From the IMG/VR virus record IMGVR_UViG_3300023184_000259, positions 1 to 40,385 of that record: DNA of 40,385 bases; one strand, 5' to 3'. Shown piece after piece: positions 3,149 through 37,600 of the stretch. The notes under the pieces are model-generated. The model was not told the DNA's origin, did not search any database, and saw only the letters and a list, made by a program, of their open reading frames with translations. The DNA comes from a virus. The position numbers were made by a program, and so were the translations under genes. Each line of letters opens with the position of its first letter. Within the stretch, counting starts at the first letter, position 1.

Positions 3149-3345
3149 TTGACAAGTACCTAGAACACTTGACCTCTAAGGTCAATGACAAAGTTTTGCA
3201 ACTCCAAGAAGCTATGGGTGACGGTAACGCCGCCGACTTTGCGGAGTACAAAAAGATGTGCGGAGAGATTAAAGGTCTTCTCACTGCGCGTTCCTACATC
3301 AAAGACCTACAGGAAAGAATAACCAACAATGACGACGACACCTGA
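3145..3345 (+). CDS. small helical protein downstream of portal
   Basis: A 66-residue, mainly alpha-helical, charged protein whose ATG overlaps the portal stop (ATGA), so translation is probably coupled. Its end overlaps the next gene by 17 bases. It has no cysteine cluster, signal peptide or membrane segment. The sequence (DKYLEHLTSKVNDKVLQLQE at the N-terminus, ending in several Asp) suggests a short helical bundle. Small proteins of this kind commonly sit between portal and scaffold in related phages, but I do not recognise a function. It is kept as a real gene because of the overlap arrangement and the protein-like composition. Confidence 0.75.
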   Translation: MIDKYLEHLTSKVNDKVLQLQEAMGDGNAADFAEYKKMCGEIKGLLTARSYIKDLQERITNNDDDT

Positions 3346-3754
3346 CATTTTGTTTGCCACCAACCCTGACAATCCCGTTGTAATTGGCAGCTCACAAAAG
3401 ACAGAAGAAGAAAAGGCATCTCAACTTCCCAAGCCCGCTGGCTACAAAATCCTGTGTGCAATTCCTGAACAGGAAAAAGAGTACGAGGGAGACATTGGGA
3501 TTATCAAAGCAGACGAAACCATGCGATACGACGAGCTGCTGACTACAGTCTTGTTTGTGGTTGACCTGGGGCCAGACTGCTATATGGACAAGGCAAAGTT
3601 TCCAACTGGGCCTTGGTGTCAAAAGGGTGATTTTGTGTTGACTAGACCCCACGCAGGCTCACGTTTACAAATTCACGGCCGAGAATTCCGCATCATTAAC
3701 GACGATTCAGTCGAAGGTGTTGTCGAAGACCCGCGCGGTATCAAACGCAAATAA
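3329..3754 (+). CDS. GroES-like co-chaperonin (phage)
   Basis: 141 residues. Residues ~35-134 follow the GroES pattern strand by strand: PAGYKILCAIPE matches the opening strand, EYEGDIGIIKADE the region before the mobile loop, VVDLGPDCY (77-85) the GroES VVAVGPG turn, CQKGDFVLT the VKVGDIVIF strand, and RIINDDSVEGVVE the closing strand. GroES caps GroEL during folding; phages such as T4 (gp31) replace it so that host GroEL can fold their capsid protein. Position between portal and scaffold/capsid genes fits that role. The first ~33 residues are an extra, probably flexible extension. Two odd points are an Asp-Cys after the turn and a shorter roof region. No phage GroEL is visible, so it would have to work with the host GroEL. 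This is a fold-level call from motif order; identity to bacterial GroES is low. Confidence 0.65.
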   Translation: MTTTPDILFATNPDNPVVIGSSQKTEEEKASQLPKPAGYKILCAIPEQEKEYEGDIGIIKADETMRYDELLTTVLFVVDLGPDCYMDKAKFPTGPWCQKGDFVLTRPHAGSRLQIHGREFRIINDDSVEGVVEDPRGIKRK

Positions 3755-19287: not shown

Positions 19288-21393
19288 ATGCCGCTCAAAA
19301 AACTATCACTCCGGCCTGGTGTAAACAGGGAGAACACCCGCTATACCAATGAGAACGGGTGGTATGAGTCCGAGAAGGTTCGGTTCCGCCAGGGTACACC
19401 AGAGAAGATTGGCGGCTGGCAGCGGTTCAGCTCATCCACCTTTGTGGGAGCCTGTCGCTCCTTATGGAATTGGGTTACTTTAGGCTATTTAAACTTAATT
19501 GGCGTTGGCACAAACCTAAAGTTTTACATTGAGAGCGGTGGCGTCTATAACGATATCACTCCTTTGCGGGCCACTGTTGCACTGGGCGCCAGCCCATTTT
19601 CCACTCAAATCAACTCTACCACTGTTACAGTCACTGACGCTGCCGGAGGATTTTTGACCGGCGACTTTGTTACATTTTCTAATGCATCAACTGTTGCCGG
19701 ACTTGATCTAAATGGAGAGTATCAACTAACACTTGTCAGCTTAACAACCTACACAATAACCGCGTCTAGTCAAGCAAGTGCAACAACAACCGGCGGAGGA
19801 TCAGGTGTTTTGGCCGCCTATCAGATTCATGTGGGTGCCGAGTATGCCGTGCCCCTATCTGGCTGGGGAGCTGGCGCTTGGGGCTCTGGTACTTGGGGTA
19901 TAGGTACAACAACGGCCAATCCATTACGGCTATGGAGCCAATACAACTTTGGCGAAGATTTGGTATTTGGCTACCAAGGCGGCCCTATTTATTATTGGAA
20001 TGCTACATATGGAGTGGTTCCCACCACAATGACTGTAACAATAGCCAGTCCGGGTGTTCTTACCCTGGGCATAAACCCAACCAATGGTGATGCGGTTGTC
20101 TTCCAAACCACTGGTACTTTACCAACCGGAATCACTGCCGGCACGGTCTATTACGTTATCAATGCCAGTGGAACAACCTGCAACATCTCAGCTACATATG
20201 GTGGTGTTGCTATCAACACTTCTGTCACGCAGTCTGGTGTTCACAAGCTAACGGTACGCGGTATACCTTTGACCAGCTTAGGCGGTGCCAACGGGGTTCC
20301 TATCATTCAGAATCTAGTGTTTGTTTCAGACGCCAGCCGGTTTGTATTTGCTTTTGGGTGTAATGCCTATGGGTCAACTGTGCAAGACCCTATGCTAATC
20401 CGCTGGTCTGATCAAGAGTCTTTGACAGACTGGGTATCTTCAGCAACAAACCAAGCCGGTGATCTGCGCTTGTCTCACGGCTCTAAGATCGTCACGGCCA
20501 TGCAGTCTCGGCAAGAAATTTTGGTTTGGACGGATGCAAGCTTGTACTCCTTGCAGTATGTTGGCGCGCCATTGGTTTGGTCTTCTCAATTGGTAGGTGA
20601 CAACATTTCAATTGCCGGCCAGAATGCCGTGGCTTATGCAAACGGCGTGTCTTACTGGATGGGCGTGGACAAGTTCTACAAGTACGATGGCCGCACTCAA
20701 ACACTGAATTGTGATCTCAGAAAGTTCATTTACGGCGATATTAACCTTTTGCAAAAGGATCAGTTCTTTGCCAGCACCAATGAAGGATTCAACGAGATTT
20801 GGTTTTTCTACTGCTCAAGCGGCTCAAACACAATTGACCAATATGCCGTGTATAACTACTTTGAAAATGAAGGCAAAGGAGCCTGGTACTACGGCACCAT
20901 GGTTCGCACGGCTTGGATTGATAGCGGCCTAAGAGACTATCCAGTGGCCGCTACATACGATGGATCGACTGGCAACTTAGTGAACCATGAGTATGGCGTG
21001 GATGACAACTCCACAGGAACCACATTGCCAATTGAGGCTTACATCATCTCTGCCGAGTTTGACTTGGATGATGGAAATAACTTCTCATTCATTTGGCGAG
21101 TTCTACCCGACATCAGTTTTGCCGGATCAGAAGCCGCATCTCCAACGGCAACCATGTACTTATTGCCAATGCAGAACTCCGGCTCAGGATATAACAGCCC
21201 GGCATCTGTAGGAGGCATTAGCAGCGCCGCAATTACCCGTACTGCCATATTGCCGATTGAGGAATTTACCGGTCAGATCAATACCAGGGTGCGTGGGCGC
21301 CAGATGGCCATGAAGATAGAGTCAACAGCAATTGGCGTCCAGTGGCAGCTTGGCTCTCCGCGACTGGATATTCGCTCGGATGGAAGACGCTAA
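19288..21393 (+). CDS. tail hub / stabilisation protein (P22 gp10-like role)
   Basis: 701 residues, beta-rich. The opening LRPGVNRENTRYTNENGWYE followed by KVRFRQGTPEKIGGW is a strong signature of proteins annotated as phage stabilisation or tail-hub proteins in podovirus-like phages. Two Thr/Ser/Gly-rich beta insertions are visible: residues ~100-190 (TVTVTDAAGGFLTGDFVTF, LDLNGEYQLTLVSLTTYTI) and ~248-325 (GDAVVFQTTGTLPTGITAG, GVAINTSVTQSG). The rest (~330-620) has a repeated Trp/Tyr-rich blade-like pattern (RWSDQESLTDWV, YWMGVDKFYKYDGRTQ) suggesting a propeller. It likely plugs the tail tip below the adaptors. It overlaps the next gene by one base. Confidence 0.8.
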   Translation: MPLKKLSLRPGVNRENTRYTNENGWYESEKVRFRQGTPEKIGGWQRFSSSTFVGACRSLWNWVTLGYLNLIGVGTNLKFYIESGGVYNDITPLRATVALGASPFSTQINSTTVTVTDAAGGFLTGDFVTFSNASTVAGLDLNGEYQLTLVSLTTYTITASSQASATTTGGGSGVLAAYQIHVGAEYAVPLSGWGAGAWGSGTWGIGTTTANPLRLWSQYNFGEDLVFGYQGGPIYYWNATYGVVPTTMTVTIASPGVLTLGINPTNGDAVVFQTTGTLPTGITAGTVYYVINASGTTCNISATYGGVAINTSVTQSGVHKLTVRGIPLTSLGGANGVPIIQNLVFVSDASRFVFAFGCNAYGSTVQDPMLIRWSDQESLTDWVSSATNQAGDLRLSHGSKIVTAMQSRQEILVWTDASLYSLQYVGAPLVWSSQLVGDNISIAGQNAVAYANGVSYWMGVDKFYKYDGRTQTLNCDLRKFIYGDINLLQKDQFFASTNEGFNEIWFFYCSSGSNTIDQYAVYNYFENEGKGAWYYGTMVRTAWIDSGLRDYPVAATYDGSTGNLVNHEYGVDDNSTGTTLPIEAYIISAEFDLDDGNNFSFIWRVLPDISFAGSEAASPTATMYLLPMQNSGSGYNSPASVGGISSAAITRTAILPIEEFTGQINTRVRGRQMAMKIESTAIGVQWQLGSPRLDIRSDGRR

Positions 21394-21743
21394 TGACTTT
21401 GATTGTTACTACAACATCAGAGCTTCAACGCATTGCCCCGCCTGCATTGCCGCAAGCCTCAGAGGAATACAGCCGACCCTATCAGGATCAACTAAACAAC
21501 GTGATTCGTCTGTATTTAAACAGGATTAACACCTTAGTTGGCCAGATTCAAGCGGATAAAACAATATTTCCTGCCCTTACTGTTTACACCGTAGCCACCC
21601 TACCAAGTGCCGCCACTTCAGGAGCTGGCGCTAGGTCATTTGTGTCTGATGCTCTAGCTCCGGTGTTTGGATCAACCGTAGTAACTGGCGGCGCGGTAAA
21701 AACACCCGTATATTCAGATGGAACAAATTGGAAAGTAGGATGA
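21393..21743 (+). CDS. small tail-associated protein
   Basis: 116 residues from the ATG overlapping the hub stop (TAATG); an upstream in-frame start lies within the hub gene. The N-terminal half is helical (SEEYSRPYQDQLNNVIRLYL, RINTLVGQI) and resembles a trimerising stem. The C-terminal half (TVATLPSAATSGAGARSFVS, then YSDGTNWKVG) matches the small beta motif often found at the end of phage fibre and head-fibre proteins. It ends with an ATGA overlap into the acyl carrier protein gene. Its role is inferred as a minor tail or fibre protein. Confidence 0.75.
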   Translation: MTLIVTTTSELQRIAPPALPQASEEYSRPYQDQLNNVIRLYLNRINTLVGQIQADKTIFPALTVYTVATLPSAATSGAGARSFVSDALAPVFGSTVVTGGAVKTPVYSDGTNWKVG

Positions 21744-22021
21744 ACTTTATAGAACTCCTAAACAAAGTTGGTAGAGTCGCCCGCCCGGCTCACCATGAGT
21801 TTGTGCCCATCGAATCCATGGAGGAACGGTTTGAAGAATCCTGCTTTGACTCCCTGGATATGCTGATGATTGGCATGTACATGGCTGAAATCTATGACAT
21901 CGACGATGAGATAGCCAAAGAGCTGAACCCTGAGACAGTCCAGGAAATGTATGACCTGGTTCAGCTGCACAAAAAGCGCGATCCTGAATCTATGGAATGG
22001 GCAATGGAGCTCATTAAATGA
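21740..22021 (+). CDS. acyl carrier protein (phage-encoded)
   Basis: 93 residues from ATG 21740, which overlaps the previous stop (ATGA). D37-S38-L39-D40 is the exact phosphopantetheine attachment motif of acyl carrier proteins (E. coli DSLD, Ser36). From that Ser onward the sequence aligns without gaps to E. coli AcpP: the helix II pattern M-x-x-E-x-x-Y/F, the acidic DDEIAKEL segment and the T-V-Q at 66-68 (E. coli 64-66). Helix II and III acidity, the surface that enzymes recognise, is kept. The N-terminal helix is longer and more basic (NKVGRVARPAHHEF) than usual. The next gene, in a 4-base overlap, is a ketosynthase, its natural partner. Holo-form conversion would need a host phosphopantetheinyl transferase, as none is seen here. 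Confidence 0.88.
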   Translation: MNFIELLNKVGRVARPAHHEFVPIESMEERFEESCFDSLDMLMIGMYMAEIYDIDDEIAKELNPETVQEMYDLVQLHKKRDPESMEWAMELIK

Positions 22022-23136
22022 TTTACCTCACCGACTACCGCACTGCCTACTCCAGCCATGTTGAGCTGATGGAAGACATCACCTACCCCCAAAGGGTTCA
22101 TTGGTTCCCGGAGACCTATAAGCGGGCGTCGACTGGAATGTTTTATGCGCCTCACCGCGTTGCCGAGAAAGTGCTGGACCCGGAATTGGTGACGCAGCTG
22201 CGGGAGAATAAGGTTGGCAAGACTGCATTTATTCTTGCTTCCGGGAATGCCCACTTTGCTGGTATCAATCCCCGCGCCAAGGGGCCAACCCAGCTTTCCT
22301 ACGAATACAAGTTTCTGCCGTTCACTCTAACTCAGGTATATGCCGGGCGAACCGCTCAGGCCCTGGGTGCTACAGACCATATTGTGACCGACTCAACAGC
22401 TTGCGCATCCAGCCTAAAGGCGCTGATGGATGTCCAGACCTTGATAATGATGTATGGGTTTGATCGGGTCATCGTTCTGTCTGTAGAGGATGCAGTATCC
22501 AATTCGGTGCTGGAGTTCTTCGGTGAAGCCAAAGCGTCCTTGACCCTGAAAGATGAGCAGGATGGGGTTTTGCCGTCTGCGTTTGATGAAAAAAACCACG
22601 GCTTCTATGTTGGTCAGGGTGCAGTCTTAGCGGTGTTTGATTCTCCTAAAGTTGTCTTTGCCAACAAAAGCAACTACCCTGCGGCATCTTTGCGCGGTGC
22701 CTATACGGCTAGCGAAGAATGTCCCAATGCCATAGGTCAGCGGGAAGATGGCCAGGGGTTTGTGCGCGCAATTGAAGGCGCCTTGACTGTGGCCAAAGAC
22801 CGGGCGAGCCGGATAAAACTTGTCAAAACCCATGGAACTGGTACGCTCAGTAACAACAAGGCCGAGAAGACTGCTTTGTTGTCGACGTTAAAAGACTTTG
22901 TCGCAACGTCATACAAGGCTAAAATCGGCCATACTATGGGCGCCAGCGGGCTGCTCGAGACATGTTTGCTGCTAGACGACCTCAAACGTGGCGTTGTGCC
23001 CAAGATTGAAAACCGCACAACACATGACACTCAATTCTTATCCCATGATGTATCAGACCCTGGTGGTTTGATACTCAGCTTGGCGGCTGGTATGGGCAAC
23101 GTATATTCGGCAGCACTTCTGTCGTTGGAGATTTGA
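22018..23136 (+). CDS. beta-ketoacyl-ACP synthase (KAS I/II-like thiolase-fold condensing enzyme)
   Basis: 372 residues. The catalytic triad of elongating ketosynthases is intact: Cys129 in TDSTACASSLKAL, His272 in KTHGTGTLSNNKAE and His305 in KAKIGHTMGASGLLE, with the supporting Lys300 five residues before His305 as in FabF. The ending GMGNVYSAALLSLEI matches the Gly-rich terminal strand. It should condense an acyl chain with malonyl-ACP. It is ~40 residues shorter than FabF and lacks the usual N-terminal VVITGxGxxxPxG strand, replaced by an unfamiliar segment (YLTDYRTAYSSHVELMED). It overlaps the ACP gene by 4 bases; the next gene starts one base after its stop. Chain-length-factor identity is excluded by the Cys. 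Product and substrate cannot be read from sequence. Confidence 0.88.
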   Translation: MIYLTDYRTAYSSHVELMEDITYPQRVHWFPETYKRASTGMFYAPHRVAEKVLDPELVTQLRENKVGKTAFILASGNAHFAGINPRAKGPTQLSYEYKFLPFTLTQVYAGRTAQALGATDHIVTDSTACASSLKALMDVQTLIMMYGFDRVIVLSVEDAVSNSVLEFFGEAKASLTLKDEQDGVLPSAFDEKNHGFYVGQGAVLAVFDSPKVVFANKSNYPAASLRGAYTASEECPNAIGQREDGQGFVRAIEGALTVAKDRASRIKLVKTHGTGTLSNNKAEKTALLSTLKDFVATSYKAKIGHTMGASGLLETCLLLDDLKRGVVPKIENRTTHDTQFLSHDVSDPGGLILSLAAGMGNVYSAALLSLEI

Positions 23137-23137
23137 T

Positions 23138-23572
23138 ATGTCAGGAATGGTAGACAGCAAACAAAAACAGCTCAATAGCGCGGAGATCGTCAAGATCGCG
23201 CTAGATAACACCAGCTCAAAGATCCCTACTTCAGCCGCTTTTACAGCGGTCATGGCGGAGCTGGGCCAGCCTAATACTGACGTCAAGATCATGGGGAACA
23301 CTTTATTTGTGCTCCACAAAGCTGACAATGGTCAAGGGTTTTTTAAAGCACTAAATGCAGATACCGCGCGCAACTTTGTTGAAAGCAGCAGGCAGTATGT
23401 GGTTTACGCCAAACAAAAGCAGGGCATAAAAGTCCTGGTTACAGAATTTGAAGATCCCGCAATCAGCACTTTGTTTCACGCTATTTCCAAAAAACCACCT
23501 ATGCCAAATATGGGGTTTCAGGAATACAAGGTTTCACCTAGCGTAAACAGAATTGTTTTAAATCTGGGGTGA
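23138..23572 (+). CDS. conserved phage protein of unknown function
   Basis: 144 residues, mixed alpha/beta. Recognisable pattern: KQKQLNSAEIVKIALDNTSS at the start, then VKIMGNTLFVLHKADNGQGF, FKALNADTARNFVESSRQY and FEDPAISTLFHAISK. The combination of a GNT(L/V)F strand with N-x-DTARNF is one I have seen in several phages just upstream of internal virion proteins. Acetyltransferase-like folds have a comparable strand-helix order, but no acetyl-CoA motif is clear. It is tightly linked to the ketosynthase gene (1-base gap); whether it works with it is unknown. Confidence 0.75.
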   Translation: MSGMVDSKQKQLNSAEIVKIALDNTSSKIPTSAAFTAVMAELGQPNTDVKIMGNTLFVLHKADNGQGFFKALNADTARNFVESSRQYVVYAKQKQGIKVLVTEFEDPAISTLFHAISKKPPMPNMGFQEYKVSPSVNRIVLNLG

Positions 23573-23575
23573 CAT

Positions 23576-25360
23576 ATGGGTGCAGTAGCAGCAATAGTAG
23601 AAGCACCATTTAAAGCGGTTGAGGCTGTAGGTAAAGCCGTTGGCAACGCTGTTGAAGACGTTGGCAACTTTGTCAACAAGGAAATCATTCAACCTGTTGC
23701 AAAAACGGTAGAGAAGACCGTACAGGCCGCACTAGATGATCCAATTGGAACGGCGGCCAAAGTTGTAACTGCCATATATGCGCCAGAGCTTTTACCTTTG
23801 ACTAACGCGGGAGTTGCCTTAGCTCATGGCGCTTCGCCAGAAGATGCATTGAAATCAGCTGCTGTAACTATGGTCACCCAAAATGTTGCGGAGGGTGTTG
23901 GTGACTATGTCAAGCCTGAAATGGCTCAGACATTTTCTAACCCAGCAGTGGCTAATGCGGCCACAAGCGCAACAGCCAATGTGGCGGCAGCTGTAGCTAC
24001 CGGCCAGGACCCGACGCAAGCATTGATATCGAGCGCTTCTGGCTCTGCGGCTGGCGCTATTGCCCAAGAAATCCCTGGCTTTGATGACCTATCTAAGACT
24101 CAGAAGAATGCTGCTGTCTCCGCAATCTCTGCAACTATTCAGGGCAAAGATGCAACCCAAGCGGTTATCAATCAAGCAATTGCTGATGGTATCGACGCGG
24201 CCAACAAAGCCGTTCATCCAGATGCTGCCTACCAAGACCTTCTTAAGACCAACCCCAATATTGATACAGAGACTCTACCCAACACGCCTGCAACTACTAC
24301 AGACGAGTTGAATCAAGAGTTGTTCCCAGCCGACACCGGGGCAGAAACTGCGCCAATCACAACACCAGGAACAAGTGTGGTTCAGGATGTTTTAGCTCCG
24401 GCCACAAGCGATACAACTCCAGCATTGCCAACCCCGGATTTACCAGTCCCGCAGACTCCGCCCTCGGCAACAGAGACTCCAGCGGCAGAAACCCCTGCGC
24501 CAAAAGAGCCCGCTAAAGAAACTCCGGCAGCAGATCAAGGGTTTGACAATGCTGCGCTTAACGACTTTTACCAGTCGATTGGCTTAGACCCCGAGTCCAT
24601 CACAAAAGCGTCTGCAATGACCGACGACCCGCTGGAGATGTACTCTCAAGCGTATGACGAACAATTCATGCGGGATTACTACAAGTCGATTGGTATTGAC
24701 CCGGATTCAATTAGCCCGGCCTCTCCAATGGAAGAAGACCCGCTGGCATATCTGAACCCTGATCCCATCGGAGCTTCACAGAAGTCTTTGGGCCAAATGG
24801 TTAAGTCATTCATACCGGCAAACGTCAACATGCCTGACCGTAGCTCAATCATGCCGCTTTTGCAAAATGCAGCGCTCTATGGTGGTGCTGGCGTGGCTAT
24901 CTCATCGTTACTAGATGAAAACGGCAACCCGGTTACTTCAGAGCCTGTACCTGAGCAGAGCTTCTATTGGAATCAAATGGCTCCTACCGCTCCAGAAGAT
25001 GGCGTGGCTTATGGAGAATCTCAGTTAAATCCCTACTATGCAGCACAGGGCGGGTTAATGTCATTAGCGCGCGGTGGCATCTCTACCCTGGGCGGTTACT
25101 CGGACGGCGGTAGATTGCTCAAGGGCCCTGGTGATGGTATGTCTGACAACATCCCGGCAATGATTGGCCGCAAGCAGCCTGCCAGGTTGGCAGATGGCGA
25201 GTTTGTAGTCCCGGCTGATGTCGTCTCTCATCTTGGTAACGGCTCAACAGAAGCTGGCGCCAATGTTCTGTACAAGATGATGGAAAAGGTTAGACGCGCT
25301 CGAACCGGAAACGTCAAGCAGGGCAGACAGATCAATCCCACTAAATTTATTCCCTCATAA
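23576..25360 (+). CDS. internal virion / ejection-type protein with GG-motif C-terminal domain
   Basis: 594 residues. The N-terminal ~220 residues are Ala/Val-rich amphipathic helices (VEAPFKAVEAVGKAVGNAVE), a composition seen in ejected pore-forming virion proteins. A Pro/Thr/Glu-rich linker follows (~250-325). Next come two copies of a short unit, DFYQSIGLDPESITKAS and DYYKSIGIDPDSISPAS. The C-terminal domain starts with AAQGGLMSLARGG and continues with PGDGMSDNIPAMI, LADGEFVVPADVVSHLGNG and GANVLYKMMEKVRRARTG, a domain widespread in aquatic phages. Its function there is unknown to me. The next gene follows after 9 bases. Confidence 0.8.
   Translation: MGAVAAIVEAPFKAVEAVGKAVGNAVEDVGNFVNKEIIQPVAKTVEKTVQAALDDPIGTAAKVVTAIYAPELLPLTNAGVALAHGASPEDALKSAAVTMVTQNVAEGVGDYVKPEMAQTFSNPAVANAATSATANVAAAVATGQDPTQALISSASGSAAGAIAQEIPGFDDLSKTQKNAAVSAISATIQGKDATQAVINQAIADGIDAANKAVHPDAAYQDLLKTNPNIDTETLPNTPATTTDELNQELFPADTGAETAPITTPGTSVVQDVLAPATSDTTPALPTPDLPVPQTPPSATETPAAETPAPKEPAKETPAADQGFDNAALNDFYQSIGLDPESITKASAMTDDPLEMYSQAYDEQFMRDYYKSIGIDPDSISPASPMEEDPLAYLNPDPIGASQKSLGQMVKSFIPANVNMPDRSSIMPLLQNAALYGGAGVAISSLLDENGNPVTSEPVPEQSFYWNQMAPTAPEDGVAYGESQLNPYYAAQGGLMSLARGGISTLGGYSDGGRLLKGPGDGMSDNIPAMIGRKQPARLADGEFVVPADVVSHLGNGSTEAGANVLYKMMEKVRRARTGNVKQGRQINPTKFIPS
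24563..24757 (+). repeat. tandem duplication of a ~28-residue unit
   Basis: Units at 24563-24649 and 24674-24757 encode DFYQSIGLDPESITKASAM and DYYKSIGIDPDSISPASPM, each followed by a DDPL/EDPL stretch. A short Gln/Asp spacer separates them. Confidence 0.8.
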
Positions 25361-25369
25361 GGAAAGACC

Positions 25370-26605
25370 ATGGCACTCTTATCTTCTTCAGGCTTAACAG
25401 ACGTCCCGTCTTCAGCCAACGTCACGGGCCCATCAGACTATTCAAGACCGTTTACATCTGATGTATTGGCCAAAGGGCAGGCGCAATTAAATGCACCTAT
25501 GCCTCAGTACCAGGGCCAGTTAACCGCTGGTACTTCCGGCTTGCAAAGTGACGCTTGGAAGGGATTGTCCAATCTGACTCTGCCGTCAACAATGACCACG
25601 GCTGGGAGCAACTTACTTGGAATTGGTCAACAAGCTCAAGGGGCGTCTTACACGCCAGCCGGATCAGACTTTACCTCTCAGTATGCCCAGCAATACATGA
25701 ACCCGTATTTGCAGGCATCCCTTAATCCTCAACTGGACGAAGCTCGACGTCAGTCATTGATCACCCAACAAGGCAATGCAGCCAAGGCTACTTCGCAAGG
25801 TGCTTTTGGTGGTTCAAGACAAGCTTTGATGGATACAGAGACTCAGCGAGCCTTGGGCACAAACTTGGCTAACATCACCGGCCAGGGCTACAACACAGCT
25901 TATAACAATGCTCAGGCCCAGTTCAATGCTGACCAAGCGCGCAAAATACAAGAGGCCCAATACGGCGCTGATCTAGGCCTGAAAGGATTGACAGCCGCTA
26001 CTTCGGCTAATCAGGCGGCAGGTAATATTGGTTCGCAACAGGCCCAGTATGGATTGCAGAATTTGCAAGCTTTAGCTACAGCTGGCAATACTCAGCAAGC
26101 CCAGAATCAGGCCGCACTGAATGCCCAGTACAACCAGTATCTGGATCAGCGTAACTACCCATCGACCATGCTTTCAAACCAAGCTGCTCTCATTAAAAAT
26201 GTTGGCGGACAACAGATTGCTACTTATGGAGCCAAACCAAGCTTCTTGCAATCAGCAGTTGGTACGGCAGCTGGTGTTGCTGACCTTATCAAGAACCTTA
26301 CGGCATCTGGCAAGAGCGTTCCAGCAATTAACAGCATTCTTAAATCAATGGGTATCAATCCATCCACGCTGGCGCCAAGTATGACTGCAACTCACCAAAA
26401 CACAGTTGATGCCAATGGCAATCCGGTAAATCCAAGTGGTGGAGATACAGTTGTCAATGATCCATTAGGCGGAGATTACGGTTCTGTATACGGTACGCCA
26501 GAAGAACAACAGTCTTGGAATGACTGGAACAATTATTATTCCAATCAAAATACTGACAACTCCACAAACAACTACCCAGGTGGCGACACCTACACCGGGC
26601 CTTGA
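25370..26605 (+). CDS. internal virion / ejection-type protein, Gln/Ala-rich
   Basis: 411 residues. Central region (about 100-270) is a long Gln/Ala/Asn-rich helical stretch with landmarks YMNPYLQASLNPQLDEARRQ, GAFGGSRQALMDTETQRALG and YNQYLDQRNYP. The YMNPY...AFGGSRQA pattern is typical of helical internal virion proteins of podovirus-like phages, probably ejected with the DNA. Residues 285-330 form a hydrophobic segment (QSAVGTAAGVADLIKNLTAS). The C-terminal ~70 residues are Asn/Gly/Asp-rich and disordered. AAGGA lies upstream of the ATG. Confidence 0.8.
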   Translation: MALLSSSGLTDVPSSANVTGPSDYSRPFTSDVLAKGQAQLNAPMPQYQGQLTAGTSGLQSDAWKGLSNLTLPSTMTTAGSNLLGIGQQAQGASYTPAGSDFTSQYAQQYMNPYLQASLNPQLDEARRQSLITQQGNAAKATSQGAFGGSRQALMDTETQRALGTNLANITGQGYNTAYNNAQAQFNADQARKIQEAQYGADLGLKGLTAATSANQAAGNIGSQQAQYGLQNLQALATAGNTQQAQNQAALNAQYNQYLDQRNYPSTMLSNQAALIKNVGGQQIATYGAKPSFLQSAVGTAAGVADLIKNLTASGKSVPAINSILKSMGINPSTLAPSMTATHQNTVDANGNPVNPSGGDTVVNDPLGGDYGSVYGTPEEQQSWNDWNNYYSNQNTDNSTNNYPGGDTYTGP

Positions 26606-26632: not shown

Positions 26633-28636
26633 ATGGCTACTGAACCACTAAATCTCATCCAAGTTCAATCTAGGTTGCAAGACCCGCTGACGGTTACCAA
26701 CCAGGATTTGCTGAAGTACGCCAATGGGGGTAACCCAGAGGTACCGTCATTCCTTGCCCTGATTGAGATGAATCGACGCAAGCAAATTGAGGACACAACG
26801 GCGCAGTTCCAAAGCGCCAATGTCCCGTCTGTTAAAGATCAGCTGGCTCAGTCATTGATCAGTCCGACCATGACCGGCGGCAACAGGATGATCCAGGTTA
26901 ATCCGACCGATGCACCTACCGGGATCATCAACCCCACCCATATGTCTCAGCCCGCTCAACCTACGGCTAATCCATTTGGAATGCCTCCCCAAGTTAATAT
27001 GACTGCGCCTCCACCGGTTCCGCAGCCTCCTCCTACTCAAGCTGCAAGGGGCGGTCTTATGACTCTACCCGTGCGCCATTTCAATTCTTCCAGCTATGCA
27101 GGCGGCGGCATTGTGGCGTTTGGCGATCCAGAATTGAACCCAGATGAAGACCAGATAGTCAAAGACCGCGCTGAATATATTGCCCGGCATTCAGGACGAC
27201 CACCGGCTGATGACACCGAGGCGGTTAAAGACTTGCTGACCGGCAGAACAAAAACCAGCGGCCAGACATCAGGGGAAGACAATCAGCCGTCCTCCAGTGA
27301 TATGACAAGGCTCATGGTTGATCAAGCCAAGAAGTCGCAAGTTAGTGCGCCCGAAAGCAAAGGCGGCCCAGATGCGTCTTACGATATCAAGGATAGCGGC
27401 GTTTCTCCTGCTACCAATTTGCCGTTGTACACAGAAAAAAATCCCAACTTGCGCGGCCCGCACGTTAACCCGGTTGAAACACCTGCCCCGGTTTACGAAA
27501 GACGATTTGAGGAAAACAAGCCGGAATCGGGTTTGCCATCTATGCTCAAACCACTGGCAATTTCAAAGCCAGAAGACCTGAGCAGAGAACAAGCCTACGC
27601 CGGTATCAAGGAAAGCCAACGCATGGCTGGAGTCTCACAAGACCCCTATGCCGACGTTAAGAAGCGTCAGGATGCCTTGGAGGCCAGACAGTTGGCCGAG
27701 TATGAGCAAGGCGGCATTGACCGACTCATTGCCCAAGCTACGGCATTTGCTACCGCTGATCCAGCCAAAGGATTTGGTGTTGCTGCCGCACAAAGCTCTG
27801 CGGCATCGCGCGCTTTGGAGAAAGAACAGAACGCCTTGCGTACCCAGCAAGAGACTGCGGCAATCACGGTTCGTACCGCTATGGCCAAGGAGCAAGATGC
27901 TCATGCGCGCGGGGATGCAGCTGCTATCGAGTCATCTGTTGCAGAACGCCAGAAAGCCCAAGCTGAATTTGCCAAACTTGTTCAACAACAGAACAAGATT
28001 GAGATTGACATGGCCACCATGCAAAACACGGCACAGCACTACAAAGATCAGGCCGATATCCAAAAAGAATCCAACCGGATTACAGATTCATATCACCAGG
28101 GCTCTCTTACGCTGGAGCAGGCTAAAAATCAAGTGCAGGCAGCATTGGCTCAAGGTCAGCTTGACTATCATGTGGCCAAACTTGTTATTGACAAACTCGA
28201 AGCTGAGAACAAGGCAACTCACTTGATCAATGAGGGCCAGTACTGGAGAGGTATGGTGGCTTATCACAACACCATGGCCGGAATTGCCGAGGACACCAGG
28301 CCAAGTAAAGAAGACAAAGTACTGACAGCAGTTCAAAAACTGGTGGAAGCTGATCCGACCATAAAACGCTTAGCAGAAAGAATAACTAAAAACGAGATAA
28401 AGATCGGCTCAGAAGAATATGCCACCATAATGGAGGAAATGCGACGGATTTCTATACCTTTTTATAAAGACCACAAGTTGACTCCTCCTGAGCCAGCCAA
28501 CTTTCCAAAACCGCCGCCTGCCCCAGTCAAAAAAGAATTCCATCTCAGCGATTTAAATCCTTTTAAGCCCGCTGCTCCTGCTACAGTTGATACCAGCGGA
28601 TTTAAATATATTGGCAAAGATGAAATGGGGCACTAA
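26633..28636 (+). CDS. internal virion protein with RGGLM motif and long coiled coil
   Basis: 667 residues. The first ~60 residues (QVQSRLQDPLTVTNQDLLKY, then GNPEVPSFLALIEMNRRKQ) match a phage virion N-terminus I have seen repeatedly in aquatic phages. A Pro-rich stretch leads to AARGGLMTLPVRHFN and SSYAGGGIVAFGDPE (residues ~135-165), the same short GG motifs as in the 23576 protein. From ~320 to 600 it is helical and Ala/Gln/Glu-rich with coiled-coil periodicity (ALEARQLAEYEQGGIDRLIA). It is expected to be a core protein of the virion interior. It ends in a TAATG overlap with the giant gene. Confidence 0.8.
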   Translation: MATEPLNLIQVQSRLQDPLTVTNQDLLKYANGGNPEVPSFLALIEMNRRKQIEDTTAQFQSANVPSVKDQLAQSLISPTMTGGNRMIQVNPTDAPTGIINPTHMSQPAQPTANPFGMPPQVNMTAPPPVPQPPPTQAARGGLMTLPVRHFNSSSYAGGGIVAFGDPELNPDEDQIVKDRAEYIARHSGRPPADDTEAVKDLLTGRTKTSGQTSGEDNQPSSSDMTRLMVDQAKKSQVSAPESKGGPDASYDIKDSGVSPATNLPLYTEKNPNLRGPHVNPVETPAPVYERRFEENKPESGLPSMLKPLAISKPEDLSREQAYAGIKESQRMAGVSQDPYADVKKRQDALEARQLAEYEQGGIDRLIAQATAFATADPAKGFGVAAAQSSAASRALEKEQNALRTQQETAAITVRTAMAKEQDAHARGDAAAIESSVAERQKAQAEFAKLVQQQNKIEIDMATMQNTAQHYKDQADIQKESNRITDSYHQGSLTLEQAKNQVQAALAQGQLDYHVAKLVIDKLEAENKATHLINEGQYWRGMVAYHNTMAGIAEDTRPSKEDKVLTAVQKLVEADPTIKRLAERITKNEIKIGSEEYATIMEEMRRISIPFYKDHKLTPPEPANFPKPPPAPVKKEFHLSDLNPFKPAAPATVDTSGFKYIGKDEMGH

Positions 28637-31600
28637 TGACAACGCGTTATCGAGTCCAAGGTCCAGATGGTGCGATCCATGTTCTTGAAGGGCCGGATGA
28701 TGCATCCCCCTTACAGATAGAAACATTTGCCGCCCAGACAATAGGCAAAGCCGCCCAAAAGCCGGCTCCCGAACCGGGCTTGCTATCTGCTCTTCCTGTG
28801 GCAAAGCCTGTTGTAGCTACCCCAAGCCCAGACGCTAACGTCATGGGTGGGGATGATATTTGGTCAACTATTACTCAGCCAGTTGCTAAGACAGAGCCCA
28901 AGAGCATCATGGAGGGCTTTAAAGGCGCTCCTCCTGAAGTTGATTATGCAGAGAACTTGCGGGCAATGCAGCGCAGTGAAAGCCCTGATTCGGTCATGTA
29001 TAAGTTTGGCCGTGCCAAGCAAGAGACAGATCAGCAAGTTGAGCTGGGCAAGCAGAAAATACAAGAAGTCCAAGACCAGCGTGACAAGTTGCGCGCTGCC
29101 GCAAAGAATGAGAGCTACGGGTTTACAGACTTTGCCAAAGATAGCGGCTTGGATTTAGCCAAGGGAACCTCTGGTTTACTTGAATCCTATGTTGGTTTGC
29201 TTGATATTACCTCCTTTGGAACTGCTGGAAAAGTGTTAGGCGATATGGGGTATGACCCTCCAGCCGTTAAAAAATTCCTTGATGGGTTTCAATCCATTAC
29301 TAGAAAAAATGCTGATGCCAATGTGCAAGAGGCCCAAGGATTTATAGACAGCCTGTGGGCAATTGGCGTTAATCCAACTGCAATGGTTGGAAGTATTGTT
29401 GGGTCTTTACCAGGCACCGTTGCATCAGGCGTTGGCGCTGGTCAATTTGTAAGATTTTTGGTAGGAAAAGCAACGGTTGAAGCAACGGCTCTTGGTTTAG
29501 AAGGAGCAGCCGCCCAGGCTTTTATCACCAACAAAATCAAAGACCAGACTTTTAAGATTGCTGCTGCTGCTGGCGCATCAGAAGGTCTTCAAACAACCGG
29601 TTCAATTGCCGAGGCCGGACGCCAAGCTGGAACTGATTGGAGCGACTATGTTGTTCCTGCTATTGCCGCCGGTCTGGGCACCACTGCTATATCAATTGCT
29701 TCTGGAAAGATTGGCCAGAAGTTTGGCATTGGAGATATTGAAACTAATATTGCAGCACGTTCACAAAAAATCAAAGGAATTGGCCAGGGCGAAGGAGCCT
29801 TTGTTTCCAAGTTTCTTAAAGAAGTTGGCAAAGAAGGCTTCTTGGAAGAGATGCCACAATCTGCTCAAGAACAGATATTTCAAAACCTTGCTACCAATCG
29901 ACCATGGGATGAGGGTATTGGCGCTGCTGCCGCCCAAGGCCTGGTTGCTGGATTGGGCATGGCTGGCGGTCACTCTGCCGGAGTAGCGGCTTTACAAAGG
30001 ACTTCATCCACCATAGACAAAATGGCGCCTAATTTTGCGTTGTCTCGCGCAATGCAGGCGGATATGAAAGATCGGCAGTTTTCTCCTGAAGCTATTCGAC
30101 AAGAGGCCGTGCGCCGTCTTCGTCCTGACCAGGCCCAAATGCAACTGGAGCCAGAAGCTGGCATCACATCTTTGCGCCCAACTGTTGAGCCAGCGCCGCC
30201 GGAGAAGCCACTTCCCCCCGGCGAGACATTCCAAGTTACTTTGCCAGATGATATTCGTAATGGCATTCAAAGTGGCGTGGCGTCTATTGACCCAGATACG
30301 CGTGATTTTTATGCATTGCAGTTAGAAAGAAAGCTTGCCAAAAACGGCACACTGACTTGGCAAGATATTCCGCAAGAGTTAAACAACTCTATGGACACGG
30401 TGGAGTTTGGCGCTTTGAGATCAGGCATAACTCTCAATCCAGAGGCGGCAATTGCACTGGTTCGCGGCGATCAAAATGTCACTTCCGAAGCTGCGCCACC
30501 GGTAGCCGAAGTAACTCCTGTCTCCGCTCCGCAAGAACCTACAGCTGGCCCAGCTACTCCAGCTGCCGTCGAAACTCCAACCGAAGAGCTGGCCAGACAA
30601 GTCCTGCCTGATGAGTCTCAGGACTATGAGGCCATGATCAAGGAGCTGGAAGCTCAGATGGAGGGTAAACCCGCACCCAAGGCGGAAGAGCCCAAAGCTG
30701 AAGAACCTGTAACCACAGGGCCATCTGCTCCGACCGGCGGCCCTGCTGCGCCCGTCAAAGTATCGGAACCAGAAACTCCTCCGGTCAAGCAAGTCTTTGA
30801 AAAATCCAATCAGTTGATGAACGAAGAGGTTGCAAAGATTGATTCGGCTGAAAAGTTGGCGGTTGAATACGCAAACATTAGACACAGAAAGAATCCTCTC
30901 TCTGTTAATTCGCAAACAGATGCTGTTGCTATGCAAGGGGTTTTCCTGGAAAGATTTGCGGACAACCACCCTGAAAAAGCAGCCGAGTTTGCAGCTGAGT
31001 TAAAAGCCGATCCTGAAAAGTATTCTGACGTATCTGGTATTTCTCCAGACTCAGTAAGAGCGGTAGGCTTACGGATTGATAAGCGTCTTGCGTTTAACAA
31101 AGAACAATCCGCAAAAGCCCCAGAAACCACAGCTGGCCCAACCGTTCCAGTAGGCGGCCCTGCTGCACCCACAAAAGTAGCCGAGCCAGAAGCGCCAGCA
31201 GAAGTCGCTGCGCCGGGCGAAGAAACAACACAGGCCGTTTCTGAAATAACTGAGCCAGAAGCGCCAGCTGAACCTATAGAAAGCGGCTTACCTAAACTTC
31301 CCGCCGGAGAATACAAGCCACGGGATCAGTTTCAGCACGAAGGAAGAACGTGGCAAGTTAGCTCTGTACTTCATACAGGTAAAGGTTTGGAGGCTAATAC
31401 TGTAGACAAAGGAAAATTTGTTCGTCAGCGTTTTGATATTGCCGCCAAGGAAGTTCCAGCAGAAGAGAAGCCTACCGCCGGACCAGCTGGCGTCGACACT
31501 ACCACTGTTACAGTCAAACCCGAAGAGCCAACAGGTGGCCCCGCTGCCCCAGCCGGACCTAAAGAACCCAAAGCGCCAAAGGTAAAGCTTTCTGAAGAAG

Positions 31601-34600
31601 AGAAAGCAAAGGCGGCAGAGGAAAAAGTTAAAGCCGAGGAAGAGAAGGCCAAAGCCGCAGAGCAAAAGAAAAAGGCCGAGGAATTCAACAAGCAGCCCAT
31701 GAAGGTTGCCATGGAAGCTGGCAATGCTGATGTTGTTGCGTCTATCCTGCACGGGAACGCTGTGGCTGAAGACATGATGCCCGTCATCTTCCCTGATGAG
31801 ATGCTGTTACGCATCCCTGTCTATTCAGGGGATCTATCAAAGATTGAAGCGGCGCTGGCTAAGAACGGGTTCCGCATTACTGATCGGTCAGTTTCTTCAA
31901 CTACAGACGATCCATCCTATACAGGCCCTGAGCGTGTAACTATTTCCGCGCTTTACAAGCCTGAGAAGGTAAGTATCCAGGGTGGTGGTGCGGAGTTTTA
32001 TGGAAACCGCAAAGACAAGGTTACCGCTCCTCCAATACCTAGAGATGCTACAGACGCCCAAATCACCAAGATGTTGGCGGCTGTGTCCAAAGACATCCTG
32101 CTTGACATCAATTCAAATCCAGACAACTCGTTTGGAACAATGATGTACAAAGAGGGCATTGTGAGCTATGTCTTGCCTGCGTCCGACTACATGCTTGCAG
32201 CCATCAAAGAAGCCCGACTTGTTCGTGTATCTGAAAGAACAGGTAGCCGACAGGCTATCAAGATGGCTTTGGAAAACGGTCAACAAGATGAAATCCAAAA
32301 GCTTTTACAGGGTTATGTTGATGCGCTTCAGGGCCTGCAAAAGGTCTTTGACTCTCACGCCCGTATAGGTGACTTAGACCTTGCGCTAAAAGAAAAGTAC
32401 GTCAAAGATGAAAGCCAAAGCTCGTCAGCGTTCAAGTACACGCAAGATGGACTCGATCTCCGCAGCAAGCTAAAAGCCAATAACTTGCCCGCACTCTTTA
32501 ACAAGATGTACCAGTTGTTTGGGGCAAATGAAGATTCCACTGACCAGACTAACCGCGTCATCAAGAAGGAAACTGAAGTGCCACCAGAGCTGGGCAACAT
32601 TGTCCGCCGTGGTATGCGGGATCACCGCCAGGGCCGTGACGTTGATGTCCAAGACTTTGTAAACACGTTTGGCCTATTTCCCGGTGGTGTTGATTTTGGT
32701 AACTGGGTTAACCAGTCCGAGCGCGCGGCTCACTTGAATGCTATCTATGACGCCATGTATGACTTGGCGGATGTTTCTGGCATTTCTCCAAAGATGCTTG
32801 GACTGGGCGAGAAGCTCAAGATGGCCATTGGTGCCCAGGGTAAAGGCGGCAGAACTGCTGCCCACTACATTCCTAAGCTAAACGAAATCAACCTTACCAA
32901 AACCAAAGGCGATGGATCACTTGGCCATGAGTGGCAGCACGGCTTGGACTGGAATCTTCAGCAAGAAGCCAATGGCAAAAAACTGATGGCGGGCACGGTT
33001 GAGGCCCTCAAAAACACAATAGATGCTGAGACAGTAGAAAACAATCTCAAGGCCATTTTGCGAGATGTTGCCAACAGCGCAGATAACCGCAACATGCCGC
33101 CCAAGAAAGCGTTCTTTGCTGCAATTACAAACCCTAACTATTATTCCCAAGCGCCAATCTTTAGGGACTCGTACAAACAGACTCAGTACCTTAGAGATGC
33201 TCGGGCGTTAGATGAAGCAGAGGGCAGAAGCCCGGCTTATTGGAGCTCCAACGTCGAGTTGTTGTCTCGCGCATTTGAGTCTATGTTGTTTGATATGTCT
33301 AAGGGCGGGTCACCATACCTTGTCGGCCCCACAGTTGCTGATGGATACATATCAAAGAAAAACGGGTACGGTGGTACGTCTTACCCGGCGGGTAAAGAGC
33401 GCCCGGCCCTCAATGAAGTCTATAAGCAGATGCTCGACCAGATTGACCCAGAGACTCTGGAAGTCAAAACCTACAAGATGGACACCAAGATTGTCCAAGT
33501 GGAAGAGCTGGGCTATGCCGTCTTGGATCAGTACAACTTAGATTCTGGCTCTAGTGGCGGCCTGGTTTGGTTCAAAAACCAGAAGGAAGCTGAAGAAGCC
33601 AAAGCCCAACGTGACGGCCAAGAAAGAGTCATGACTCCAGAGGCCATGCAACTGAGCAAGGTCAATCAGCGCATCATTGACATGGCAAAGCGGGTTGATG
33701 CCATCATGGAAGAGATGGGTCTATTCAAATGGCCCGAGATTAAAAATGGCTCAATGTCTGAGTCCATGTTCTATCACATGCGTCAAGGATGGTGGCCAAA
33801 GAATAACCGTGAGCTGGCCGAGTACGGCATCAAAGCGTACTTGCAGAATCCAAAATTGCTTGGCTTTGACCCCGCCAAAGATCAGCGCGAAATAGATAAG
33901 TACAAGATTGCCGACTTTGAGGGTGACCGCGTCAAACTTAAGCAGACTCAAGAAGACTTTGAGGCCGCAGCCGTGCGCTATGTTAGCCAAGTCATTACTG
34001 ACATGAGAGCTGAAGGCTCAGATACAAAGGCTGTCTATGAGCACATTGTTGGCCTGTATCAAACTCAGCCGACATTGGATGTTCAGTCTGTCCTAAGCAA
34101 AACAAACAACGCCTACTCCACGCCCCTGCCTATTGCTTTCCTGGCCGGTATGCTGGCAAAGGTTAAATCCACCACTACGGTCTTGGATCCAACGGGCGGC
34201 AATGGAATGCTGGTAGTGGCAGCCAATCCACAGAACGTCACCACAATCGAGCTTGACCCTCACCGCGCTCTAAACATGGAGCTGATGCAAATTGGCAACG
34301 TGATCGAGGGTGATGCTCTTGAGAAAATCAATGACTTAAGAGATCAGGAAGTTGACGTAGTCTTGGCCAACCCGCCGTTTGGCGCCTTGTCAACATCAGA
34401 AAATATCCCGTCTTGGACTGGTCAGAGCTACAAAATTGGAGCACTGGATCAATTGATCGCGGCTAAGTCTTTGCGGGCTATGGCCAACAATGGCCGTGCT
34501 GTATTGATACTTGGAGCACACCCTAAAGCCGGGACAGTAACCTCCACAGACCGTGTATTCCTGAATTGGCTATATGGCAACTACAACGTAGTAGACCATT

Positions 34601-37600
34601 TTGAGATCGCTGGCAACTTGTATCGTAAGCAGGGCGCGTCTTGGCCGTTGCGCGTCCTAGTTATTGCCGGTAGAAACCAAACGGAAAACGCTTATCCAAG
34701 TGATTTCAACATCAATCGGATAACTACATTTGATGAACTTTGGAGCAGATATGTTCAAACCAGTGATCGTAGCCAAGAAGTCGTGGTGGGTACCGGAAAG
34801 AAACAGCCAATTACTGGCGGTGCAAATCGACCTGCCGGAGGAGTACCAACAGGCGGTACGCTGGAAAATGGAGAGCCTAGCGGAGGAGTGGGGGCTGGAG
34901 AGGGCGCTGGCGTCGGCGAACAACTACCTACAACAGGACGGGGCGCTGGCGCTGCCACAACCGGCGGACGAGGAGCAGCTGGTGCAGCTGGTGCTGGAGA
35001 ACAGCAGCCGGATATCGGAAAAAATAAACGAGGGGGATCCAATACTGGCCAAGCCGGCAGCTCAGAAAGAGGCGCTGATAGCGGTAGAGGATCAGAAGCT
35101 GAACTGGGAGGACTTTCTGACCTAGACCTGGATTCAATCTTTGATGAACTAGGTAAACCAGAAAAAGTTAAGGGCGGCCCGCGCGCGCCTCGAGGTGCTC
35201 CAAAAGAGCCAGGCGCTCCAAGGGCTCCAAGAGCGCCAGCAGTCAAAGGCCCAACAGTTATTCCAAAAGAGCTGGAAGGATTGGGACTAGAGTCATTGTT
35301 GGATGAATTAGATGTTGCCCTGAACGGCAAGGCTCCTGAAGTAACCAAAGAAACTACGCCAGAAGACAGTCAAGAGCGCCTGGACAAGCAAGCCAACGAG
35401 GCTATGGGTCGCATTGCTCAGAACACCAAGAACACCAGCGACGACCCTAACAGCGGTCTTTACTCAAGAAAGGGTGATCAGGAGTACGCCAACGTGCAGC
35501 CAATCATCCAGAAGGTATGGAATGCTGTTGGTGAAAAGGTTAGCGACGTATCTCAACGTATCAAGCAAGTCTATTCTTTGCTGGTTACCAAGTTTGGTGA
35601 CGCCATCAAAGCCCACCTACGCACGTTTGTTGATAGCCTGCGCTCAGTGGTACAGCGTCGTCCTAAGAACCAGACCCCCGTCCAAGCGGAACCTATTGAT
35701 ACTGAATCCCGCGTTGTCTACCTTGGCAAGTCGCGGTTCTCCAGCGATGGCATCTATTTGCCGCGCGCGCAGTCTCAACACGCTTACTCAGCCTTGGAAA
35801 GACTGGAAGCCCAGGTCGGTGCCATTGATGAGTTTGTGGCCAACGAGCTTGGATATCCGTCAGTTGAGAAAATGGCCAAAGGTTTGGCCGGGTATCAGAT
35901 AGACGGCTTGGCTCTGGCCATTCAGGCCAACAAGCTTGGCAAGGGCTTCATCATTGGCGATGACACCGGTGTGGGCAAAGGCCGTGCAGCAGCCGCCATG
36001 ATTGTCTGGGCTAAGAAGAATGGAAAGATCCCGATCTTTGTAACGCTCAGTGACTCCTTGTACACCGCGATGTATGAGGATTTGAGCAACATTGGCCATG
36101 AAGACATCAAGATCGGCATGACCAACAATGAATCCATGATTCAAAAGAACATTGGTAATGGCCAGACTAAGGTTGTGTTTGAAAACAAGGGTAAAGCTGG
36201 CCCAGACCTCATGTCCTACATCGCCAAGAACGGTGAGCTGCCCAAGGGTATGGATGTCTTGTTTACAGCTTACTCTCAGCTCAATGGCGGAACAGGCTCT
36301 CCGGCAAGACAGGGAGCCATAGCCTCTTTGGTTGCCGCTGGCAAAGCCGTCTTGATCATGGATGAGGCTCATAATGCAGCTGGCATTCCAACTAACCCGG
36401 ACTCTGTTGGCCAGAATGCTTTCTTTATGTCTTTGCTGACAGGTCAAAACTTGTTGGGCAAGGATAAAGACGCGCCAGAAGATTGGCAGCCACCTCCTGC
36501 TGTGTACTTGTCTGCGACATTTGCAAAGCGCCCAGACAACATGCCTTTGTACATCCATACCAACTTACGGTATGCGGCCAACACTCCAGAAGAGCTGACG
36601 GCCTTGTTCGGCAAGGGCGTGAAGACCGACGTCTTGCAACAGGTTTCATCTGAGATGTTGGTTGAGTCTGGCTCCATGTTGCGCCGCGAGAGATCGTATG
36701 AAGGCGTGAAGATGGACTTTGTTACAGACGAGGCCAATGCTCCGCGCGATATCAGGGAAGTCGACAAAGTCACAACCATCCTAAGAACATTGGTCAATGC
36801 TGATCGTGCGCTTAAAGATTGGCTGAAGACGCCCGGAATCCAAGAGCAGCTCATTACGACGTTTGGCCCACCCGGCTCAATGCTGGGAAAGATTGGCCCT
36901 ACCGCGTTCACTGAGGCCAAGGCCAACATGTTCACCTCTGTGGTTCATAACTACATTGGAACCCTGCTGTTGTCTACCAAGACTCAAACAGCCGTAGACA
37001 TGGTTGTGGACAAGATGAACAACAATGAAAAGGTTGTTGTTGGCTTGCAGAACACAAACGGCAGCGCGCTAGATGACTTTGTCTCCAAGAACGGTATCAA
37101 GATAGGTGATGAAATACCCAACTTTGGTTGGCAGACTCTTCTCCAGCGCGCCATTGACTCGACCAGAAAGGTCACGTTGAAGTCAGCCACCGGAAACAAG
37201 AAGGACAACATCAAGGTTGAAGTCCCATACTCGATGATGCCTCCATCTGTAAGGGCTGGCTACGACAACCTGGCCAACATGCTCAAAGACTTCCAGTCTG
37301 ATTTGCCTGTGGCTCCTATTGACTACATGCGTACTCAGCTTGAGAGCAAGTATGTCTGGACAATCGACGGCAAGACTCATGTTGGGGATACACCTCCACC
37401 CGGAGTTAAGGCTAGACACCTGGTGGTCAGAGAAATTACCGGGCGCAATACAGCTGTAGATTACCGTGGTGATGTGCCTAAATACATGGCGCTGAATAAC
37501 CCAGAACGGGTTGCCATGATCTCCTCATTCCAAAACGGTGAAGACTCTCAAAATGGGCCAATCGACGTATTGATCATTAACTCTGCTGGCGCGACTGGCA

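Follow-up and report, generated by a model that had tools for sequence, protein, structure and literature searches.

A putative acyl carrier protein-ketosynthase cassette linked to a GNAT-fold gene among the tail and ejection genes of uncultured phages

The analysed stretch of DNA (hereafter the window) is the 40,385-bp IMG/VR virus record IMGVR_UViG_3300023184_000259. It is apparently truncated at both ends, as a terminase of only 180 aa stands at the left end and a giant reading frame runs off the right one. From left to right the window encodes the terminase, portal protein, a GroES-like protein, the major head protein, a tail fibre or spike, holin, endolysin and a gp10-like stabilisation protein, followed by a small gene and by genes for an acyl carrier protein-like product (ACP), a beta-ketoacyl synthase (KS), a 144-aa protein and proteins of the ejection type. 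The GroES-like co-chaperonin gene is located between the portal and head genes (3329-3754; PHROG_3188, 1.2e-8). The isolated phages nearest by the portal (680-3148) and gp10-like (19288-21393) proteins are Pelagibacter phages HTVC023P and HTVC027P, Roseobacter phages CRP-901 and CRP-902, Planktothrix phage Pag-Yong1 and DSL-LC04, at 33-43% identity; a KS of the window family was found in none of them.

The genes considered below are all encoded on the plus strand. The gp10-like stabilisation or tail protein (PHROG_3287, virion structural protein, 1.7e-55) is the conserved upstream neighbour of the locus with or without the ACP and KS genes, adjoining in 13 of 14 genomes. The small gene after it (21387-21743), to which the sequence assigns no function, overlaps with its stop the start of the ACP gene (ATGA). 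The latter (21740-22021, 93 aa) was read from the ATG at 21740, a TTG start at 21728 being a possible alternative, and it is joined by a second four-base ATGA overlap to the KS gene (22018-23136, 372 aa). The 144-aa gene (23138-23572) lies 1 base after the KS gene, and an ejection-type gene (23576-25360), 3 bases further on, precedes a gene for a DNA ejection protein-like product (25370-26605; PHROG_4287, DNA ejection protein, 1.4e-9). Hence the ACP, KS and 144-aa genes are tightly packed with tail and ejection genes. A preliminary description of this DNA had placed here, inside a structural operon, an ACP with Ser38 in a DSLD motif (codon 21851-21853) coupled by a 4-base overlap to a KS with Cys129 (22402-22404), His272 (22831-22833), Lys300 (22915-22917) and His305 (22930-22932); all these elements were recovered, and the operon is one of tail and ejection genes.

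Taken singly, the ACP sequence matches Pfam weakly (PP-binding_2, E=0.047, under the cut-off) and the PHROG annotated as acyl carrier protein at 7.5e-5. The PDB matches listed for a family profile of 55 homologues are ACPs, the best with E=3.3e-5. In the alignment of the profile with E. coli ACP (1acp), which spans 56 positions of both and is offset by 2, Ser38 corresponds to Ser36. Residues D37, S38 and D40 are invariant in the 55 aligned homologues, and the median dN/dS equals 0.075. Glu41 of the E. coli ACP has a role in recognition. The corresponding position in the phage ACPs is mostly Met; this is more in keeping with a dedicated ACP than with one serving host enzymes.

The KS scores above the Pfam cut-offs (PF00109, 39.6 bits, and PF02801, 55.9 bits, vs 20.8), its first 70 residues falling outside the match. 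Among both NCBIfam and PDB profiles the best one is FabF. The phage protein shares with FabF (KAS II) the KS fold and the Cys-His-His plus Lys set, but is shorter (372 aa vs about 410 aa) and misses the cut-off of the fabF equivalog TIGR03150 (96.5 vs 493.75 bits); on sequence criteria it is a FabF-type KS, not to be filed as FabF. In KS alignments Cys129, His272, Lys300 and His305 occupy the FabF active-site positions. Together with the pantetheine-binding threonines T274 and T276 they are invariant in 59 representatives (less than 90% identical), while the family diverges down to 55-60% identity. The AlphaFold model (pLDDT 88.6, pTM 0.91) has the thiolase fold, with Foldseek E of about 5e-24 to KS structures; in structure it matches best the actinorhodin KS and enzymes of the FabF type, and KS-CLF is matched as well. 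No second KS-like gene, such as the chain length factor of the KS-CLF-ACP minimal type II PKS, was found in 20 phages, each having one KS match per genome. The median dN/dS of KS is 0.082, and the values for both genes indicate purifying selection. The ACP-KS pair is probably catalytically competent, judging from these conserved residues and the predicted fold, and we hold with good confidence that the two form a functional, linked condensing pair.

A scan of viral contigs yielded 206 IMG/VR stretches encoding KS relatives, 80 of which were kept, and a scan with a distant KS member yielded 151 stretches. The ACP gene stands directly upstream of KS in every contig with room for it. The cassette is widespread among uncultured phages, hundreds of which carry it, and the presence of the pair on hundreds of contigs rejects an assembly chimera. 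Among 50,697 phage records there is one full-length homologue, in the uncultured phage MW202545 (KS 66.5% identical, ACP 51%). Other KS matches in records labelled as phage are only 24-29% identical, come from unannotated records and are probably bacterial DNA. A search of 84,980 species genomes of bacteria and archaea detected a single relative, whose contig, assigned to a Balneolaceae MAG, may be a binned phage. Given this single relative and the identity of at most about 29% to plasmid-borne FabF, a recent transfer from bacteria was rejected; by these comparisons the KS and ACP are a phage family and not a recent host gene. The preliminary reading of the pair thus holds up in profile searches, in the predicted KS fold and in related phages, where active sites are invariant at dN/dS of about 0.08. 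It missed the phage-specific family, the third linked gene and the optional status of the pair, the last two of which are considered below.

The fetched genomes had been selected by KS, and the presence of the pair in all of them, which suggested a core virion gene, is a matter of ascertainment: when the locus was re-sampled with the gp10-like neighbour as the query, only 4 of the 64 loci that had enough space contained the pair. On the gp10-like tree the presence of the pair changes at least 9 times. Locus L202 aligns with the KS-bearing L036 at about 84% DNA identity up to the ACP start codon, a homologue of the small gene standing before the empty site, and from that point runs straight into a divergent 144-aa gene; KS is absent from the whole 45-kb L202 record. 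Contig L306 retains the gp10-like, small and 144-aa genes with a decayed KS scrap between them (L306 1707-1800), ACP and the greater part of KS having apparently been lost naturally. Since some relatives have empty sites and one has a decayed scrap, the pair is dispensable, and on this comparative evidence it is an optional cassette, not an essential one.

The product of the 144-aa gene has GNAT topology in a confident AlphaFold model (pLDDT 93.7). Its leading PDB fold matches are GNAT acyltransferases; among its viral matches are a DUF2824 protein and an internal virion protein A of the T7 type. Neither Pfam and PHROG scans of the family nor a PDB sequence search assigned it to a sequence family. 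The Q/RxxGxG/A acyl-CoA pyrophosphate motif is absent, the loop in the window protein being NADTARNF, and we therefore call the protein GNAT-fold only; given the viral proteins that match its fold, it may be structural. The gene is genetically linked to the pair. It occurs in 130 of 130 KS-positive loci vs 9 of 53 related KS-negative ones, the copies in the latter being divergent. When the GNAT-fold family alone served as the query, a KS gene or remnant (the remnant being that of L306) adjoined in 80 of 80 loci, these being the best-scoring 80 of 379; four KS-negative phage records do contain a divergent copy. Pairwise distances of the three proteins are mutually correlated (r 0.75-0.82; GNAT-fold protein vs KS and ACP, r 0.75), whereas their correlation with the distances of the gp10-like gene is only 0.44-0.49. 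A tree-corrected comparison gives about 4:0 in the direction of linkage, from too few pairs for significance, and block recombination could produce linkage without joint function. As the GNAT-fold gene is kept in L306 and in the nine KS-negative loci, its product does not need the pair, and its persistence where the pair is lost argues for a role of its own.

The surroundings resemble the P22 block gp10-gp26-gp14-gp7-gp20-gp16, in which a stabilisation protein, a small gene and ejection proteins follow a comparable order, with the GNAT-fold gene at the place of gp14; the window differs from it by ACP and KS inserted ahead of this gene. DUF2824, represented among its fold matches, is the gp14 family. 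Between the 144-aa protein and P22 gp14, however, no similarity was detectable at the sequence level (hhalign probability 0.1%), and such homology was rejected.

The protein encoded after the GNAT-fold gene (23576-25360) was assigned to the ejection type by its position before the ejection-like gene. It has an M[GSA]AV N-terminus and an amphipathic Val-rich segment, and may be an acyl acceptor. The start M[GSA][AGVI][VIAL] was found in 67 of 72 KS-positive representatives vs 0 of 39 KS-negative loci, a contrast that is suggestive only, since starts were taken by a simple rule and many of the KS-negative neighbours are unrelated proteins. The conserved N-terminus may be merely a Val-rich amphipathic or coiled helix, conserved without acylation. 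In three KS-negative loci with a divergent GNAT-fold gene (L207, L214 and L230) the next protein lacks M[GSA]AV and contains or begins with MC(N/D/S), with QEL near the start; this feature is perhaps related to Cys modification.

Genes for a PPTase and for an SDR ketoreductase were found in none of 21 phages, and as there is also a single KS, loading and perhaps processing of the chain would have to fall to enzymes of the host. Translation of the three-gene cassette would go along with that of the tail and ejection genes, presumably late in infection. A host PPTase would attach phosphopantetheine to Ser38 of the phage ACP, and the phage KS, drawing on host malonyl supply, would build or extend on it an acyl, possibly beta-ketoacyl, chain. 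The GNAT-fold protein could then hand the chain to a virion component encoded by a neighbouring gene, most likely the ejection protein, and the acylated protein would be helped to act at the host membrane. The preliminary description had proposed a membrane change, acylation of a virion protein or a small molecule as uses of the chain. Of these, acylation of a protein or of some part of the virion is favoured by the linked GNAT-fold gene and by the ejection-type genes alongside, but none of the three is proven. The most economical reading is that a dedicated acyl-ACP is produced along with the virion proteins and that the GNAT-fold protein uses it to modify a virion or ejection component; the full sequence of steps, including the transfer, is our best, though tentative, explanation. 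A narrower version, virus-encoded lipidation in which the GNAT-fold protein transfers the acyl group to an exposed N-terminal Gly, Ser or Ala of the ejection protein and thereby provides a lipid anchor, seems doubtful on present evidence.

The main rival is membrane remodelling by an auxiliary metabolic module, in which the fatty-acid synthesis of the host would be redirected or extended by the phage ACP and KS, for instance so as to change the membrane before lysis, and the GNAT-fold gene would be a mere neighbour in the virion operon. The minimal condensing pair consists of ACP and KS, and the remaining steps have to come from the host. Reports of auxiliary metabolic genes in prophages and viral contigs include fabF, fabG and acpP (PMC8224337, PMC10653327, PMC7029224). 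The acpP-fabF-fabG clusters of Rhodobacteraceae prophages (PMC8224337) likewise have a phage-encoded ACP directly followed by KS, but they include fabG in the bacterial order, whereas the window cassette has no SDR ketoreductase, belongs to a phage-specific family and has a constant position among ejection genes, accompanied by the GNAT-fold gene. The fabF genes described in pelagimyophages (PMC7029224) and viral communities (PMC10653327, PMC12783922, PMC5704599) also fall under auxiliary metabolic genes. Those of PMC7029224 and PMC10653327 are, as here, KS genes of aquatic phages; by their description they differ from the window KS in being single or accompanied by fabG or fabZ. A metabolic role is at odds with the pair always standing beside the GNAT-fold gene within the tail-ejection block and not among early metabolic genes, and with the mostly Met residue at the Glu41 position. 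We consider such a module possible but rather unlikely.

Acyl-homoserine-lactone synthases are GNAT-fold enzymes using acyl-ACP. In outline, ACP, KS and the GNAT-fold protein would suffice to release the KS product as a diffusible acyl compound, for example a signal of that kind. This route appears improbable, as the 50 best fold matches of the GNAT-fold protein in the PDB include no acyl-homoserine-lactone synthase and the gene set lies within a virion operon. Still less probable is a non-catalytic use of ACP and KS as structural or decoy proteins binding host partners or virion parts: host ACP does have many protein partners and the genes stand among structural ones, but a decoy would not need catalytic residues and pantetheine-binding threonines that stay invariant at such divergence. 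A known anti-phage defence system was rejected, no PADLOC model matching any of the three proteins.

The place of the linked trio among genes of the injection machinery suggests that these phages make an acyl group destined either for the virus particle or for the membrane of the host. If so, lipid chemistry would be tied to DNA delivery in some tailed phages, or a new way of altering host membranes would be at hand. A literature search that covered few subscription journals found no published description of an ACP-KS-GNAT-fold cassette, and its three small genes make it directly testable.

The giant reading frame at the right end of the window (28624-40383, plus strand) comprises at least 3,900 codons with no stop inside the window, and shows a 77.6% alignment over 3,780 aa to a 4,547-aa reading frame of a related phage.
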